Source: a virus
Virus record (IMG/VR): IMGVR_UViG_3300032309_003157
Coordinates: 1-20,442 of that record
Length of the DNA: 20,442 nt
Strand: one strand, 5' to 3'
Under the pieces are notes generated by a model that saw nothing but the letters and a program-made list of their open reading frames with translations, did not search any database and was not told the DNA's origin. Position 1 is the first letter of the stretch. Each line of letters starts with the position of its first letter. The translations under genes and the position numbers were made by a program. This document shows positions 12,390-20,442 of this stretch, one piece after another.

Positions 12390-15300
12390 ATGGAAAGAAG
12401 GTTTTTTCGAACTAACGGAGCATCAGGAGCCGATACACCATTTGACAATATTGTTGGCTTACAAACGGTAACTGGTGGAGGGTTAACTCAAGGTAATTTT
12501 GAGTTCGATATTTCTTTGTCCGAAAAAAACAATAGAACCTTCAACATCGGAGTTTTTGGAGATCCAATATCATTGGATGTTTTAGGATTGACCTCGGTAA
12601 ACGAGTCACGAGAATTACAATCAAAAGAATACAGAGTTTTTCCGAATATTGACTTATCGTTAGTAACCAATTTCACTCTTTATGGTTCGCTGAGAAAACG
12701 TCTAGAAGTCTCAGTTCAACGAATACTTGGTTTTTTCCCTGCAGGGCTACAAATAGATTTCTTAGATTTAGATTATTCTACAGGAAATACCGCTTACAAT
12801 ATTTCTTACAATCAGATATCAGATTTGACAACATTAACAATAAACGTTAGTAAAATCCAGAATCCTTTTTCAATCGATTATAGTTCTAAATCAAGAATTA
12901 ATTTACAAAATAGAGAGTCGGAATTTTCACCAATACGAGATTTAACTAATCGTTTCAGGGATTACGTCTTGGTGGTTGATGGGGTTAATTATACTATTAT
13001 AGATTTTAGACCATCAGATAGTTTAACTTCAGGAACTATCACATTAAAAATTACAGGTAGACCTTTTGACACGAGTGTCACAAATTCAAATCTTTTAATA
13101 AGACCGAGTGATTTTTATGTTGAAAAAATATTTTCTGAAGATTTTGACGAAGTAGTTCAATTTTTATTGAACAGATTAGTTACACCAAAATATACTGCAA
13201 CTTTTGCAGTACCTGTCGAGGGGGACAATGGAATAGTTGCAATACAAGCTAAATCGATTACCTTTCCTCTAGATGGTATTTGGAATCTAGACATTAGGAC
13301 TAACAATTTCGAAAACTATTTGAGTAAACTTAACGAAATCGGCCAACAATTTGATGAGTTTAAAACCAACTTAGTTACAAGGTTTTTGACAACAAACTCT
13401 TTTTTAGAATTTGACACCCAAGACCAAAAAGTGTTCAAAGTACTTCAAATTTATGGTAGGAGTTTTGACCAAATAAAATTATACATTACCGCGCTTGCGA
13501 ATATGACAAGTGTACAATACCAACTAGGTGACACCATACCAGATGAGTTGTTAAAATATTTAGCACAAACGTTGGGTTGGAACATAAATGTTTCACCAAT
13601 TGTTCAACAAGGTTATTTACAATCAACTTTATCAACATCAGGAGTAACTCAATATGAAGGTTACTCTCGAGAATTAACAGAAAATGAAATTAATTACAAC
13701 TTTTATCAAAACTTAATTTTAAATTCAGCCTATTTGTATAAATCAAAAGGAACGAGAAAAGCAATCGAGTTTTTACTTAGATTTTTGGGTATACCCGAAG
13801 CTGTTACCGAGTTTAACGAATTTGTATATGTTGCAGATCAAAGAATTGATATGCAAAAATTTTATGACCAATTGTTTCAACTTACAGGTGGAACATATGT
13901 TAATGAGGTTACCGAATACGATTCTGAAATAACTTTTTCGATTTACGGAATAACCTATACAGGTTTCAGTTCTTCAACAATCGTACAATCAGTGAGTGTT
14001 AATTTCGACGACTACCCTGTTGATGAATTGGGATATCCATATGCTCCTATCGAAACTGACAATTATTTTTTCGAAAAGGGTGCGGGGTGGTTCGAATCAA
14101 CTCCACAACATAGAAGTCCTGAAGTTGTTGTTCCAACATTTTCTGTCTTTACAGGTTCAAGTCCATTCGTACAAACAGAATTACAACCATTTACTTACGG
14201 TCAAGAATATTTTGAGAGGTGGAGATCATTCCCTTATATGAATTTGGGTTTCAATCTAAAATTAGTTAGAGACAACAAAAAATCGTGGCAACCACCTATT
14301 TTAAGAAAAAGTTCTAATGGTGGACTTAACGCTTACTATATTGTAGAAGATGATCGATTAGCAATTAATGCTAAGAATACCGAAATATATTTAAATCCAG
14401 GTCAGGGTTTATTATATGACGTGTGGTATATGTCTAGAAATTTTAACTATCCTATACCAAATTCAGGTATGACACCTGCTTACCCTAGTTTAGGGAGTTA
14501 TAATTGGAGTTTCATTAACCCAGAAGCGGATAAGAAAACTTTTTTCGAATTTCAAATAGATTTTATTAGATCGACAATAAATGCTAGAGACAGATGGTTT
14601 AGTACTGACGGGAAAACGAGTGGTTATTCATCACTTTTAGATATTTTTTATAATTTCTTACAGTCCGTTCAAAATGCTGATGTACCTAACTATAATTTTA
14701 CTTATAAAAAATTAATAGAATATGTTGATGGTTTGGGTACAAATTGGATACGATTGATAGAACAATTTGTTCCAGCAACAACTATATGGCAAACTGGTAT
14801 AAGATATGAGAACTCTCCAATGCAGAGGCAAAAGTATGTTTGGAAAAAACAAGAACCATGTTACTTGGTTTCATTGCAAGTTGCTAGAGTTCCTGTTACT
14901 CCAAGTCCAACAGCCTCAGTCACGGCAACTCTGAATCAAACACCGACAGCTACTCCTACTAATACAATAACACCATCTATTACACCAACTATAACCCCTA
15001 CTAATACGTTGACACCAACTGTAACTCCTACTGTTACACCGACTAAATCAGTTACACCGACACCTAGTATAACAATTGGGTTGACTCCGAGTGTGACCAC
15101 AACGAAAACTAATACTCAAACCCCAACAGTTTCCACAACCGTAACAAAGACACCTTCGAACACTGCAACAAATACGGTAACACCAACTAATACTGTAACA
15201 CCGACGAACACACGTACGGTTACACCAACGACCACACCAACGAGAACACAGACACCCACACCATCAGTAACATGTTCTGGTAGTACAGTTACTTGTTATG

Positions 15301-15542
15301 AGTTCTTACTTGATAACACGGGTATTGGTGCAACAACATATGGGTATACCGATTGTACTAACACAAGTCAAACAATTACTGTTGAAGCCAATAATTATGA
15401 CGTAGTTTGTGCAATTACAACTCCTTCTAGAATTTCAGGAGCAGTAGGTCCTGTACCAGTACAATTAGATCCTTGTGGTTCGGTATGTATTCCTCTTACA
15501 CCAACACCTACACCTACTAGAACCCCAACACCAAGTAGTTAA
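12390..15542 (+). CDS. Tail protein I / gp7-like baseplate protein fused to Thr/Pro linker and Cys-rich module (1050 aa)
   Basis: The central region (about residues 310-475) resembles P2 gpI-type tail proteins, the partners of gpJ/gp6 in the baseplate wedge. It shows IPDELLKYLAQTLGWN near residue 382 and KSKGTRKAIEFLLRFLGIPE near residue 451, matching the family pattern of a helix with LA-x-x-LGW followed by KGT-x-x-x-I-x-x-LL-x-x-LG. The N-terminal 300 residues are beta-rich and unassigned. Residues 475-834 are aromatic-rich and unassigned. Residues 835-961 are a Thr/Pro repeat linker. Residues 962-1036 form a compact module with six cysteines (C962, then TCYEF, YTDC, DVVC, DPC, VC). A short Thr/Pro tail (1037-1050, TPTPTPTRTPTPSS) ends the protein. 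A baseplate core domain carrying an adhesin-like extension is unusual. The gpI/gp7 relation is a motif-level judgement. Confidence 0.7.
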   Translation: MERRFFRTNGASGADTPFDNIVGLQTVTGGGLTQGNFEFDISLSEKNNRTFNIGVFGDPISLDVLGLTSVNESRELQSKEYRVFPNIDLSLVTNFTLYGSLRKRLEVSVQRILGFFPAGLQIDFLDLDYSTGNTAYNISYNQISDLTTLTINVSKIQNPFSIDYSSKSRINLQNRESEFSPIRDLTNRFRDYVLVVDGVNYTIIDFRPSDSLTSGTITLKITGRPFDTSVTNSNLLIRPSDFYVEKIFSEDFDEVVQFLLNRLVTPKYTATFAVPVEGDNGIVAIQAKSITFPLDGIWNLDIRTNNFENYLSKLNEIGQQFDEFKTNLVTRFLTTNSFLEFDTQDQKVFKVLQIYGRSFDQIKLYITALANMTSVQYQLGDTIPDELLKYLAQTLGWNINVSPIVQQGYLQSTLSTSGVTQYEGYSRELTENEINYNFYQNLILNSAYLYKSKGTRKAIEFLLRFLGIPEAVTEFNEFVYVADQRIDMQKFYDQLFQLTGGTYVNEVTEYDSEITFSIYGITYTGFSSSTIVQSVSVNFDDYPVDELGYPYAPIETDNYFFEKGAGWFESTPQHRSPEVVVPTFSVFTGSSPFVQTELQPFTYGQEYFERWRSFPYMNLGFNLKLVRDNKKSWQPPILRKSSNGGLNAYYIVEDDRLAINAKNTEIYLNPGQGLLYDVWYMSRNFNYPIPNSGMTPAYPSLGSYNWSFINPEADKKTFFEFQIDFIRSTINARDRWFSTDGKTSGYSSLLDIFYNFLQSVQNADVPNYNFTYKKLIEYVDGLGTNWIRLIEQFVPATTIWQTGIRYENSPMQRQKYVWKKQEPCYLVSLQVARVPVTPSPTASVTATLNQTPTATPTNTITPSITPTITPTNTLTPTVTPTVTPTKSVTPTPSITIGLTPSVTTTKTNTQTPTVSTTVTKTPSNTATNTVTPTNTVTPTNTRTVTPTTTPTRTQTPTPSVTCSGSTVTCYEFLLDNTGIGATTYGYTDCTNTSQTITVEANNYDVVCAITTPSRISGAVGPVPVQLDPCGSVCIPLTPTPTPTRTPTPSS
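14892..15272 (+). repeat. Thr/Pro-rich coding repeat array A
   Basis: About 127 codons of the 1050-aa protein consist of short units of the type T-P-T-x-T and T-x-T-P-S. At DNA level the words ACACCAACT, ACTCCTACT and GTTACACC recur imperfectly. CCTACTGTTACACC (15027-15040) is found again exactly in array C at 20402-20415, and with one mismatch in array B at 18173-18186. The encoded chain should be extended and unable to fold compactly, acting as a stalk between the baseplate domain and the Cys-rich end module. Confidence 0.85.
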
Positions 15543-15553
15543 AATATAAGTTT

Positions 15554-16054
15554 ATGAGAATTGTCAATCCTAATAACCGAGTTTTTATACTTAACTACAA
15601 TAGTGTAGCAAACGGACAATTATTTTCTTATGATTGTAACTACCAATATGTGACTACCAATATATTTCCTTGGGCATCAGAGTCTTCAGGTGTTTCTTCA
15701 TTTTCGGATGTTTTGTATAACGTTTTGAATACCTATTTGAATAGTCAAAACATACTACTGAGTGATTGTTTATCGAATAGTTTGAATTCGTTTTGGTCTG
15801 TAGAAATAAAAATTAATGGTGTGGTCTTAGTTACACTACCCTTTTTCAGTGGAGTTGGAACTACACAAGTACCTAATAATAGTCAATGGAGAAGTGCAGT
15901 CAATTTGGCACTTTCACAATTACTTGGATTTAGTTATTATTACTTTTTTGTTGGCGAAGTTGTAACAATTTATAACCTATTGTGTCCACCAACTCAAAAT
16001 TTAGTAGCAGTTGACATAAATGTAGGAATAAATTTCATAATTGAATGTAATTAA
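15554..16054 (+). CDS. Small protein homologous to the C-terminal domain of the SprB-repeat protein (166 aa)
   Basis: This 166-aa protein has no named family that I can support, but it is clearly related to residues about 566-697 of the next gene product. Aligned pieces are FFSGVGTTQVPNNSQWRSAV here with FFTGSTLLQIPSDEQWYSAV there, LLSDCL with GNCLLS, and the final VDINVGINFIIEC with TVNLLIDYVINC. It lacks the SprB repeats and the Thr/Pro tail, so it is the bare domain. No signal peptide or membrane helix is evident. It lies 11 bases after the 1050-aa gene and 3 bases before the 730-aa gene. I infer an interaction or capping domain used in the same virion appendage. Confidence 0.78.
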   Translation: MRIVNPNNRVFILNYNSVANGQLFSYDCNYQYVTTNIFPWASESSGVSSFSDVLYNVLNTYLNSQNILLSDCLSNSLNSFWSVEIKINGVVLVTLPFFSGVGTTQVPNNSQWRSAVNLALSQLLGFSYYYFFVGEVVTIYNLLCPPTQNLVAVDINVGINFIIECN

Positions 16055-16057
16055 AAT

Positions 16058-18250
16058 ATGGCTGGTACTTTTAACGCAATTTATTCAGTAACAGGATCAT
16101 GTCAAAATATTAATGCTGGTTCTATTACAATTTCTGCTTTCGGTGGAATAGAACCTTATTTTTATACTTGGTTAGACCCTTTATCATTTACAGGATCACA
16201 AATTTCAGGATTGGGTCCTGGGGTTTATAATGTATTCATCAACGATAGTGCCGCACCTGTCAATAACTATCTTTATTTAAATATTTCAGTATCAAGTGGA
16301 TTATGTTTGAATCTCATAACTTCAGCGAATACCACTTGTGGTGACTCAAATGGTAGTATTATTGTTTCAGCAATTACTGATTACAACGAAATAACCTACT
16401 CATTACTTGATAGTAACAACAACTTACTAAGTCAAATAGGTAATAATCAATTGAGTTGCCAGTTTACTAATTTAAGTGCTGGAACATATTCAATATTAGC
16501 GAATAGTTTAGCTGGTTGTTCTGCACGAACCGAAACAATAATCATAAATTCGGGTCAGACATTAGACTTTGGTTTTTATATTGTGAATGACACCGAATGC
16601 GATGTAAATCCGACTGGTAAAATTTTTGTAACAGGAGTCACAGGTAATGGACCATTTTTATATGAATGGACAAATGGTTTCACAGGAACATCAATAACAG
16701 GTTTAACTCAAGGTGTTTATGGTTGTACTGTGAGAAGTTCTGATAATTGTGTTTTGAGTAAAGCCGCTTCGGTAGATTTTGTTCCTAGTTTAGGTTTAGG
16801 TTCTTGGAGTGCAACAACAATACCTACTTGTTTCAACAATGATGGATCTTTAATTCTGAACATTACAGGTGGAACAGGCCCATACTACTATTCTGGTTCA
16901 AATAGTTACATTACAGTTTCTTATTCTCAAACACAAACATTCACAAATTTACCAGAAGGAATATTCACGGTTGATGTGACAGATGCTACTTTTTGCAAAC
17001 AAACTTTTTCGACAAATTTAGATATTGTAAATACAATAAATAATGTCACATTTACGGTTAATGATTCTTTTTGTAGTGTTTCAGGTGGTTCAATTAATAT
17101 ACAAGTATTTGGTGGTTTACCACCTTTCATTTATAGTTTATCAGGATCTAGTGAATCTAAAAATGCAACAACTAACACTTACGAATATAGTTTTGAAAAT
17201 TTAAGTCCTGGAGAATATAACATTACCGTTTCGAATATTGGACAGTGTACATACACACAAAATTTTACGGTATTAGCTCAAAATAAATTCACACATTCAA
17301 TTTCAACATCAGGTACAACTTGTGGAAATAACAATGGTGTCTTATCAATAGAAATTTCGACAGGTGGTACCGCACCTTACATATATGCATTATCTAATGG
17401 TTTTAGTTTTCAGACCGATGCATTGTCATATTCGTTCTTGAATTTACCATCGGGGTCATATACCTATCAAGTCACAGACGTAGATGGTTGTCGTCAAGAA
17501 GGTACAACTTTCATTTTGGGTTCACAATCAGTAAACTTTGAACTGTACCCAATACCTTGTATTTCAGGTGGAAATGGATCCATTACCACCCTCATCAGTA
17601 GTGGTACTCCACCATTTACCTTCGATTGGTCAAGTAACGTATCAGGTAATCCTCAAGAAATATACATAACAGGTTTGACCGCGGACACTTATACACTTCT
17701 TATTGTCGATGCAAACGGATGTAGTTATTCCGCCTCAACCATAGTCAGTTGTTTAGATATCATTTCAACTTATCAGGTATACGGAATGAGTCAAAATAAC
17801 TTCTCTTATATTTCAGGTTCACGAAGAGGTATGTTAGAAATGTTGAATCAAGGTTATGCTAACTTGACTTCAGGATTGGGAAATTGTTTATTGAGTGCAA
17901 CTACGTTTACTGTAGAATCCCAAATACAAGGTGTGACCATCAGTAGTTTGTTTTTTACAGGTTCAACACTACTTCAAATACCTTCAGATGAACAATGGTA
18001 TAGTGCGGTTTATTCATTATTATCACCCTACGCACAAGTACTAACAATTGATAATCAAAATAGTGAACTCACTATTGAAGTACCAAATAACCCACCTAAT
18101 CCTGTTTTCACAGTCAATTTATTAATTGATTATGTAATAAATTGTTTATCTACACCGACTCCTACGGTTACACCTACTGTAACACCAACTAGTTCAGTTA
18201 CCCCAACATTCACACCAACAAATTCAGCCACACCAACACCTTCAATCTAA
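16058..18250 (+). CDS. Adhesin-like protein with seven SprB-type repeats and Thr/Pro tail (730 aa)
   Basis: Residues 1 to about 565 comprise seven diverged repeats of about 80 aa. Each has the pattern T-x-C-x(4,6)-G-x-I, then GG-x-x-P-Y/F-x-Y, then a turn ending L-x-x-G-x-Y-x-V, and a final D-x-x-x-C. Clear examples are GNGPFLYEWTNGFTGTSITG followed by LTQGVYGCTV, and SGTPPFTFDWSSN followed by LTADTYTLLIVDANGCSYSA. This is the SprB-repeat style of Bacteroidota surface adhesins such as the gliding protein SprB of Flavobacterium. Residues about 566-697 are a copy of the 166-aa protein encoded just upstream. Residues 699-730 are a Thr/Pro tail ending TPTPSI. There is no signal peptide, which suits a virion protein. 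I infer a fibre or decoration protein contacting the host surface. The IS element begins right after its stop and does not truncate it. Confidence 0.8.
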   Translation: MAGTFNAIYSVTGSCQNINAGSITISAFGGIEPYFYTWLDPLSFTGSQISGLGPGVYNVFINDSAAPVNNYLYLNISVSSGLCLNLITSANTTCGDSNGSIIVSAITDYNEITYSLLDSNNNLLSQIGNNQLSCQFTNLSAGTYSILANSLAGCSARTETIIINSGQTLDFGFYIVNDTECDVNPTGKIFVTGVTGNGPFLYEWTNGFTGTSITGLTQGVYGCTVRSSDNCVLSKAASVDFVPSLGLGSWSATTIPTCFNNDGSLILNITGGTGPYYYSGSNSYITVSYSQTQTFTNLPEGIFTVDVTDATFCKQTFSTNLDIVNTINNVTFTVNDSFCSVSGGSINIQVFGGLPPFIYSLSGSSESKNATTNTYEYSFENLSPGEYNITVSNIGQCTYTQNFTVLAQNKFTHSISTSGTTCGNNNGVLSIEISTGGTAPYIYALSNGFSFQTDALSYSFLNLPSGSYTYQVTDVDGCRQEGTTFILGSQSVNFELYPIPCISGGNGSITTLISSGTPPFTFDWSSNVSGNPQEIYITGLTADTYTLLIVDANGCSYSASTIVSCLDIISTYQVYGMSQNNFSYISGSRRGMLEMLNQGYANLTSGLGNCLLSATTFTVESQIQGVTISSLFFTGSTLLQIPSDEQWYSAVYSLLSPYAQVLTIDNQNSELTIEVPNNPPNPVFTVNLLIDYVINCLSTPTPTVTPTVTPTSSVTPTFTPTNSATPTPSI
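18152..18247 (+). repeat. Thr/Pro-rich coding repeat array B
   Basis: This is the C-terminal tail of the 730-aa protein, 32 codons of T-P-T-x units (TPTPTVTPTVTPTSSVTPTF and on). It shares DNA words with arrays A and C. It is directly followed by the stop codon and the right end of the IS element, so the tail is free and caps no further domain. Confidence 0.85.
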
Positions 18251-18400
18251 GATGAACTACCAAACCACTAAAGATGGTTTGGTTTCTTGGGCTGATTGAC
18301 TAACGTCCATCATATCTCCACAAGCGTGAATTTCTGCCGTTCCAGCAGTATTATTTTTTGTAAAGGCAAAGTGTTTAATGTTATTCGCAGCAAGAACATC
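18251..18400 (-). ncRNA. Putative omega (reRNA) guide RNA at the tnpB 3' end
   Basis: In studied IS200/IS605 elements the guide RNA of TnpB comes from the 3' part of tnpB and the right end, with the guide taken from flanking DNA just past the element. Here the right-end hairpin lies inside the last codons of tnpB, so a processed RNA would cover roughly this interval. Its guide would be read from the complement of the end of the 730-aa gene, near 18236-18252. Limits are an inference from the family; no covariance evidence is available. Confidence 0.35.
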
Positions 18401-19456
18401 TCTATCGTGAGTTGTTCCGCAGGAACTACAAGTCCAAACCCTATCACTTAACTTTAATTGTTTATTTATTACACCACAAGAACACATTCTAGAACTAGGT
18501 TCAAATTGCCCTATTCTCAAAATATTACATCCAAACCATTCTGATTTATAATCAATAAGTCCAATGAACTTTGCTATCGAAATATCACTTAAAGCTTGAG
18601 CTAGTTTATGATTTTTCATCATATTACCCGATTTTAAGGTTTCTAAACACAAAGTATCGAAATTTGTAACTAAATAATGAGAAGTTTTGTGTAAAAAATC
18701 ATTTCTTTTATTTGTAACTTTTTCATGAATCAAAGCCAATTTTTTAATTTCTTTTTTACGATTATTACTTCCTTTAACTTTTCTACTAACTTTTCTTTGT
18801 TGTTTTTTTAACTTTTTAAGGGATTTTTTTAAATGTTTTGGGTTTTCTATTTCCATTCCATTTGATAATGTTGCAAAAGTTTTAATACCTAAATCAATAC
18901 CAATAGCTTGTTTTTCGTCTAAGGGTTTCTTTTTAGGTAACTCTTTTTCCAACTCAACTAAAATAGAAATGAAATATTTTCCTGTTGGTGTTTTTGTTAT
19001 CGTACTAGTTTTTATTATTCCTTCAAAAGTTCTATCAATTTTAACTTTTATTGATGTTTTAAATTTTGGTAACCAAATCTTATTTTTTTCAAAATCAATT
19101 TCTGTATTCTGAGGAATATTAAAACTTTGCCTATTATCTTTTTTTGATTTGAATTTTGGAAATCCTTTTTTTTCTTTAAAAAATCTTGTGAATGCTTTGT
19201 CCAAATTTTCTAAAGATGCTTGTAATGTTTGTGAATTTACTTCTTTCAACCAAGAAGTGTCTTCATTTTTTTTAAGTTGAGGTAAATCTTTCTGAATATC
19301 AAATCTATTTAAACCTTTTCCAGTTTCCTGATATGATGTTATTTTTTTGTTTAAAGCATAGTTATAAACCCATCTAGAACAACCCATGTGTTTTAACATA
19401 AGTTCTTCTTGTTCTTTGTTCGGATAAATTCTATATTTAAACGCTTTGTAAATCAT
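18257..19456 (-). CDS. tnpB: TnpB, RNA-guided RuvC-type nuclease of an IS200/IS605 element
   Basis: This 399-aa protein has the normal full length for TnpB (OrfB). It starts MIYKAFKYRIYPNKEQEELM, the usual N-terminus. I prefer this ATG over an in-frame TTG six codons upstream. The split RuvC site is complete: D188 in GIDLGIKTFATLSNG, E272 in LCLETLKSGNM and D353 in HDRDVLAANNIK. The zinc finger uses C325, C327, C343 and C346, with a C-x-C first pair (MCSCGVIN) in place of the common C-x-x-C. A Lys/Arg-rich region lies at about 205-250. TnpB uses an RNA from the element's 3' end to cut a matching target beside a TAM, which helps retain the element after excision. The gene is on the strand opposite all others and looks more AT-rich by eye, as expected for an acquired element. 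Confidence 0.93.
   Translation of the reverse strand: MIYKAFKYRIYPNKEQEELMLKHMGCSRWVYNYALNKKITSYQETGKGLNRFDIQKDLPQLKKNEDTSWLKEVNSQTLQASLENLDKAFTRFFKEKKGFPKFKSKKDNRQSFNIPQNTEIDFEKNKIWLPKFKTSIKVKIDRTFEGIIKTSTITKTPTGKYFISILVELEKELPKKKPLDEKQAIGIDLGIKTFATLSNGMEIENPKHLKKSLKKLKKQQRKVSRKVKGSNNRKKEIKKLALIHEKVTNKRNDFLHKTSHYLVTNFDTLCLETLKSGNMMKNHKLAQALSDISIAKFIGLIDYKSEWFGCNILRIGQFEPSSRMCSCGVINKQLKLSDRVWTCSSCGTTHDRDVLAANNIKHFAFTKNNTAGTAEIHACGDMMDVSQSAQETKPSLVVW
18259..18283 (-). repeat. Right-end hairpin of the IS element, overlapping the tnpB 3' end
   Basis: A perfect 9-bp stem (ACCAAACCA 18259-18267 with TGGTTTGGT 18275-18283) closes the loop CTAAAGA on the plus strand. It encodes the last residues of TnpB (PSLVVW) and runs into its TAG stop. 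The matching loop and CAAGAAA block at the other end identify it as the transposon right end. Confidence 0.8.
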
Positions 19457-19548
19457 TATATCGATAAATATCAATGAAACTTAAAAAGTTTAGAATAATA
19501 TTGTTTTTTTTCAAAAAAATATTTATTGTTATTACAGAACAACAATTC

Positions 19549-19648: not shown

Positions 19649-19885
19649 ATGGCATTAATTGAGATATCATCAATAACTGGAACTTCGCCCTATCAACTAT
19701 TTGTTTCTGACATTTATGGAAACAATGAAACATTTATAGCTTCTTTTTCAGGGGCAGTTCCTCCATCTCAATATTTCATATTACCGTCTTTATTTGACAC
19801 AGCCCCAATAGTATCAATTAAAATAGTTGATTCAAATAATTGTCAAACTAATTTCGAAACAATGTGTCAAATCATAGTTCCATGA
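19649..19885 (+). CDS. Small SprB-like protein, tandem copy 1 (78 aa)
   Basis: This 78-aa protein is the first of two tandem paralogues. It reads like a single SprB-type unit: SSITGTSPYQLFVSDIYGNN, a middle strand YFILPSLFD, then SIKIVDSNNCQTNFETMC. The first 35 residues match copy 2 at all but one position; the second half is much less conserved. It ends QIIVP, exactly where copy 2 continues into its Thr/Pro tail, so it is the tailless form. The start follows the duplicated leader and GGATG. No signal peptide or membrane segment is seen. A small virion decoration or fibre-associated protein is inferred from its kinship with the SprB-repeat neighbour. Confidence 0.75.
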   Translation: MALIEISSITGTSPYQLFVSDIYGNNETFIASFSGAVPPSQYFILPSLFDTAPIVSIKIVDSNNCQTNFETMCQIIVP

Positions 19886-19984: not shown

Positions 19985-20442
19985 ATGGCATTGATAGAAA
20001 TATCATCAATAACTGGAACTTCACCTTATCAATTATATGTTTCTGACATTTATGGAAACAATGAAACTTTTATTGCCTCTTTTTCAGGTACGGTACCGCC
20101 AACTAGATATTTCAATTTACCACCATTATTACAAACAGCTCAATCTGTTTTAATAAAAATTATTGACGCAAATAATTGCCAAACATTTCAACTTGTAAGT
20201 TGTAAAGTCATATTACCTACACCAAGTATAACAAGTAGTCCGACAGTTACTCCATCTATTACTCCAACAAATACACCGACACCAACAAATACTCCAACAA
20301 ATTCCGTAACACCAACCATAACACCCACAAATACACGAACACCATCAGTCACACCTACCAATACTAAAACTCCTACCGTTACACCAACCAACACTAAAAC
20401 ACCTACTGTTACACCAACTAATACACCGACAAATACAACAAC
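19985..20442 (+). CDS. Small SprB-like protein with Thr/Pro tail, tandem copy 2 (partial, runs off the window)
   Basis: The frame is open to the right edge (152 codons seen). Residues 1-77 are the paralogue of copy 1: SSITGTSPYQLYVSDIYGNN at the start and IKIIDANNCQTFQLVSCKV at the end, with Cys residues in similar places. From residue 78 it is a Thr/Pro repeat (TPSITSSPTVTPSITPTNTP and on) for at least 75 residues. Whether a further domain follows the tail, as in the 1050-aa protein, cannot be seen. It is the last gene in the window, after its own copy of the duplicated leader. A surface-exposed virion appendage protein is inferred. Confidence 0.8.
   Translation, partial: MALIEISSITGTSPYQLYVSDIYGNNETFIASFSGTVPPTRYFNLPPLLQTAQSVLIKIIDANNCQTFQLVSCKVILPTPSITSSPTVTPSITPTNTPTPTNTPTNSVTPTITPTNTRTPSVTPTNTKTPTVTPTNTKTPTVTPTNTPTNTT
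20216..20442 (+). repeat. Thr/Pro-rich coding repeat array C (continues past the window)
   Basis: At least 75 codons of T-P-T-N-T and T-P-T-V-T units belong to the last gene. ACTAAAAC followed by TCC/ACC-TAC-GTTACACC recurs about every 36 bases between 20360 and 20415. The 14-base word CCTACTGTTACACC at 20402 is identical to one in array A. It is coding, with the Gly/Val-rich reverse frame as a by-product. Confidence 0.85.

Follow-up and report, generated by a model that had tools for sequence, protein, structure and literature searches.

The window, i.e. the whole stretch of 20,442 nt analyzed here, is part of a T4-like phage tail operon from an uncultured phage of the Bacteroidota type. A gp25 gene (131-592, GPW_gp25) is followed by the gp6/Baseplate_J gene (594-2435) and further tail-region genes, and downstream of the GPW_gp25 and Baseplate_J genes lies the gene for a 1050-aa baseplate-region protein (12390..15542, + strand), in the following called the upstream protein. 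Its conserved core, residues 1-807, bears in relatives a C-terminal domain designated DomA, and its C-terminal part in the window, residues ~830-1050, consists of a Pro/Thr-rich linker and a ~75-aa Cys-containing module. A tail/baseplate function is indicated by the order of the genes behind gp25 and gp6 and by a sub-threshold match to Tail_P2_I (PF09684; E about 0.1). The label gpI-like is taken from this weak signal, which covered residues 442-477 and reached 12-13 bits (E 0.1-0.18) against a cut-off of 20.6 bits; the upstream proteins of relatives gave E<0.1 in two of 12 cases. As for P2 gpI-type proteins, the DomA-bearing core is located in the baseplate block after gp25 and gp6, but the upstream protein scores under the cut-off, is far larger and carries DomA in relatives.

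The next two genes, both on the + strand, encode a stand-alone 166-aa protein, which is DomA (ORF 15554-16054), and a 730-aa SprB-repeat protein (ORF 16058-18250), in agreement with the coordinates of the initial annotation. The seven SprB-like repeats counted there were likewise recovered (16058..17740, + strand, residues 1-561), with starts at residues 15, 94, 181, 257, 339, 421 and 501. The 730-aa protein matched Pfam SprB (PF13573) with 84.9 bits (cut-off 28, E=2.8e-24), and six stretches passed the cut-off. It thereby resembles the gliding adhesin SprB of Flavobacterium in having a shaft built of SprB repeats. It differs in being a phage tail-region product and in its C-terminal domain, DomB (17741..18148, + strand, residues 562-697), a separate alpha/beta domain without a Pfam match. 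DomB is followed by a short Pro/Thr-rich tail (18149..18247, + strand), where extra modules are joined in relatives. The SprB repeats, together with the match of gp6 to Flavobacterium phages (25-29% identity), hint at a host among the Bacteroidota.

DomA and DomB share one real domain and are distantly related copies of it. The alignment originally proposed between the 166-aa protein and the 730-aa C-terminus was reproduced by BLASTP (19/48 identical, E=2e-6), and profile-profile comparison with hhalign gave E=8.5e-9 with small family alignments and E=2e-11, probability 97.3% and a score of 70.1 with alignments of 89 and 91 sequences. Chance likeness was excluded by control comparisons, in which 40 column-shuffled profiles scored at most 22.3 and a reversed profile 14.6; pieces of an unrelated neighbour scored 21.9. 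Searches were reciprocal: with the DomB profile, 105 ORFs coding for DomA were retrieved at E<1e-3, with the DomA profile 100 ORFs coding for DomB, and the best E-value among the remaining ORFs of the loci was 0.03. In the 166-aa protein the common core covers residues ~50-166, in the 730-aa protein residues ~590-697; the stretches preceding the two cores align poorly with each other. The family, which is defined in this analysis, is characterized by an alpha-beta-beta-alpha-beta-beta-beta arrangement, a conserved FF.G....P.D/N..W core and a last strand ending in I-x-C. The profile-profile alignment extends into this strand, as the first reading of both C-termini had implied.

AlphaFold models of DomA and DomB, built from separate nine-sequence alignments, were of moderate confidence, with a mean pLDDT of 71.4 for DomA and 64.2 for DomB, and values below 50 in the N-terminal arm of DomA. 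Both showed the same order of a helix, two long strands, a helix, two short strands and a long final strand (DomA: H50-64, E72-87, E90-101, H109-126, E128-133, E136-141, E151-165; DomB: H27-43, E49-62, E65-74, H83-94, E99-104, E109-113, E123-135). A Foldseek search of BFVD with the DomA model returned just two matches at E<=1e-3, UniProt A0A6J5L8T1 (985 aa) and A0A6J5LD72 (714 aa), both from uncultured Caudovirales phages. Their lengths fit the fused DomA proteins (984-985 aa) and the DomB proteins (710-715 aa), and the 'SprB repeat' label of A0A6J5LD72 fits a DomB protein, the correspondence being judged by length and label. Neither entry is annotated beyond SprB, and DomA would there be a C-terminal domain and not a free protein. 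The published model of the 714-aa SprB protein superposed on the DomA model with a TM-score of 0.62 over the query (rmsd 3.8), so that a shared fold is supported directly by element order and indirectly, through a relative, by superposition. A Cyanophage KBS-P-1A protein was also matched (E=1.8e-3, TM 0.36). No significant PDB match to DomA or DomB was obtained (best Foldseek E 0.05 and 0.06, no relevant profile match), and weak PDB matches of both models to Y-family polymerases (E>0.06) were rejected as not meaningful.

The domain is undescribed, reaching no curated family threshold and having no solved homologue among the structures searched; the impression that it has no named family thus held. 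No Pfam match attained its curated threshold, and PHROG matches were weak and of unknown function, the best having an E-value of 0.0092 for DomA and, in one DomB member, 0.0012. DomA was absent from bacterial and archaeal genomes in pattern and tblastn searches. Neither DomA nor DomB was found in cultured phages; one tblastn query hit other phages outside DomB only, mostly SprB repeats or whisker proteins. Parts of the upstream core weakly matched baseplate-block proteins of Flavobacterium phage immuto (1265 aa) and Microcystis phage Mel-JY01 (1336 aa), in whose loci DomA and DomB were not found. The pair is present in jumbo-size contigs (L148, L157 and L143, records of 318-321 kb). The phage group may overlap with the large aquatic 'moraphages' with predicted Bacteroidota hosts, in the description of which SprB is not mentioned (PMC12619734). 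No paper describing the SprB/DomB phage proteins was found in the literature.

DomA and DomB were each monophyletic in a joint tree, where one branch with a support of 100/100 divided them. This branch was long, i.e. the two are strongly diverged. When 12 phage records of 48-321 kb were searched with the DomB profile, DomB was found once in each, with an adjacent DomA in six, and no further copies of either domain were detected elsewhere in these records (up to 321 kb). Wherever a locus is long enough to contain the two domains, they occur together and adjoin. Since each is monophyletic and they are always adjacent, DomA and DomB are paralogues from a single ancient duplication and not the outcome of repeated shuffling.

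The initial annotation described the 166-aa protein as a free copy of the end domain of the 730-aa protein. The relatives do not bear this out, as they carry DomA on the upstream protein of about 1000 aa. In loci found with the DomA profile, the upstream protein (1014 aa in L016-L023) ended in DomA and the SprB-DomB gene came immediately after it, and loci retrieved with DomB alone likewise had DomA fused to the upstream protein. To lessen bias, the upstream core alone, stripped of DomA and DomB, was used as a query. The upstream gene was complete in 77 of the loci obtained, and in these DomA was fused in 74, separate in three and lacking in none; core-only loci without DomB end soon after the upstream gene, short of the DomB position. 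All three separate cases belong to the clade of the window and have a 166-aa gene. A tree of 70 cores placed the separate forms in one clade (support 100), paired with fused L094-L101 (support 100) and nested in larger fused groups. As the separate forms are a single clade nested in this way, DomA is very probably the C-terminal domain of the upstream protein, freed by one gene fission. The direction, fission as opposed to fusion, relies on the nesting under a midpoint root; any root outside a nine-row group of the core tree gives the same answer.

In L006 and L007 of the split clade, the upstream protein stops at 831 aa, and in the window, L005, L008 and L009 it runs on into Pro/Thr-rich linkers and variable modules. 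The distance from the DomA stop to the start of the DomB-protein gene was 3 nt in each of the six distinct split cases, and among 81 distinct fused cases 64 showed a 1-nt overlap of this stop and start, a tight spacing that would be consistent with coupled, matched synthesis. The gap between the upstream gene and the DomA gene varied from 9 to 40 nt in the split genomes. Because the frame offset there was 0, 1 or 2, a conserved programmed frameshift or readthrough that would re-join DomA to the upstream protein in the clade of the window was rejected.

The freed DomA stays under strong purifying selection. Among five split genomes, in which synonymous sites were well diverged (pS about 0.6), the dN/dS of DomA was 0.17 overall, 0.05 for residues 1-40, 0.06 for residues 1-20 and 0.17-0.22 for the rest. 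The N-terminal arm, residues 1-19, has no equivalent in fused relatives. Its residues 1-17 (MRIVNPNNRVFILNYNS) showed no clear counterpart in the linker at this position, which reads like RRQxGCxxxPxxxxPC. With a dN/dS of 0.06 for residues 1-20, the part arising with the fission is thus among the most constrained.

An explanation for these observations, which on the whole is considered reasonably probable, could be a paralogous C-terminal pair, separated by fission in one clade, that docks the SprB fibre to the baseplate. The suggestion in the initial annotation that the 166-aa and 730-aa proteins assemble through their common fold is thereby retained as the favoured, though putative, reading. 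DomA and DomB would bind one another, or interlock as a pseudo-symmetric ring, so that the baseplate-borne DomA takes the DomB end of the seven-repeat SprB-like fibre. The joint is proposed because DomA is normally fixed to a baseplate-region protein, DomB is at the end of a fibre-like protein, their adjacency is invariant and DomA survived the fission; taken by itself, the docking step has a little short of an even chance. In nearly all members of this large group of uncultured T4-like phages DomA is held covalently on the upstream protein; in the clade of the window, where it is a protein of its own, it would be held in trans by the highly conserved new arm, replacing the lost covalent link. 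This role of the arm as a putative tether is put forward with somewhat more reserve than the docking. The upstream protein, its end now free, could then have gained there a site for Pro/Thr-linked variable modules. More doubtful again is the extended proposal of a putative lock-and-key pair serving as the SprB-fibre joint across a large group of uncultured phages, converted from covalent to non-covalent by the fission with the N-terminal arm as tether.

The main rival, rated about as doubtful as that extended proposal, is that DomA and DomB have the same fold by descent and make no contact, each capping or oligomerizing its own protein, e.g. as a trimerization or end-cap domain, with the free DomA self-assembling on the baseplate. 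Both are C-terminal caps, the branch between them is long, and paralogous domains often retain homotypic contacts, all of which would fit separate capping. It is opposed by the co-occurrence and adjacency of the two domains in every locus long enough for both, and by the tight spacing of their genes. Distinctly improbable is a dedicated fibre-assembly chaperone or tip adhesin of the Tfa or gp38 kind acting on the SprB-repeat fibre. A small gene adjoining a fibre-like gene and sharing the fold of the fibre's end would suit such a protein, but in relatives DomA is permanently and covalently built into the upstream protein, the DomA gene precedes the fibre gene instead of following it, and no Pfam or PHROG match to Tfa/gp38-type families was obtained for DomA. 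Mobile-domain shuffling as first suggested, with the 730-aa end domain copied into a free protein, is very improbable, for although Pro/Thr-linked modules do move between genes in this region, DomA and DomB are each monophyletic at two fixed positions, were not met at any other place in the searched phage records, and the closest kin of DomA are the fused domains of the upstream protein.

A domain pair that recurs in uncultured large phages and falls below threshold in Pfam and PHROG is hereby given a place. The docking reading can be approached through a natural experiment, in which a single clade has set free a baseplate-region domain that most relatives keep fused; this contrast makes docking of the SprB-like fibre testable with two short co-expressed proteins.

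A ~75-aa module (GSTVxCYxxLLDNxG...CGSVC) is located between Pro/Thr-rich linkers at 14880-15539 of the window. In the window, L005 and L009 it is carried by the upstream protein, whereas L006 (10505-13210) and L008 (10505-13765) have it at the C-terminal end of the SprB-DomB protein; the copy in the window was 63% and 58% identical to those of L006 and L008, respectively. This distribution points to genuine swapping between neighbouring genes, different from the situation of DomA and DomB. Behind the fused DomA, too, a Pro/Thr linker with an extra module is found in some relatives, at L102:4773-8132 and similarly in L103, L106, L123, L128 and L139, and modules are likewise appended behind DomB in many other relatives. 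Both domains thus serve as attachment points for decorations.

Downstream of the DomB gene, an IS605-type OrfB/TnpB-like gene (18257-19474, - strand) with OrfB_IS605 and Cas12f1-like TNB domains is inserted ahead of a gene for a 78-aa SprB-like domain; the insertion is present in L004 and absent from the corresponding site of L006 and L008. The 78-aa domain (MALIEISSITGTSPYQL...), for which no match was found in cultured phages, is present as a tandem duplicate at 19649-19885 and 19985-20440, one copy being alone and one having a Pro/Thr-rich tail. The duplicates are about 80% identical at the nucleotide level across the first 200 nt, and a relative of this domain comes after DomB in many related loci.
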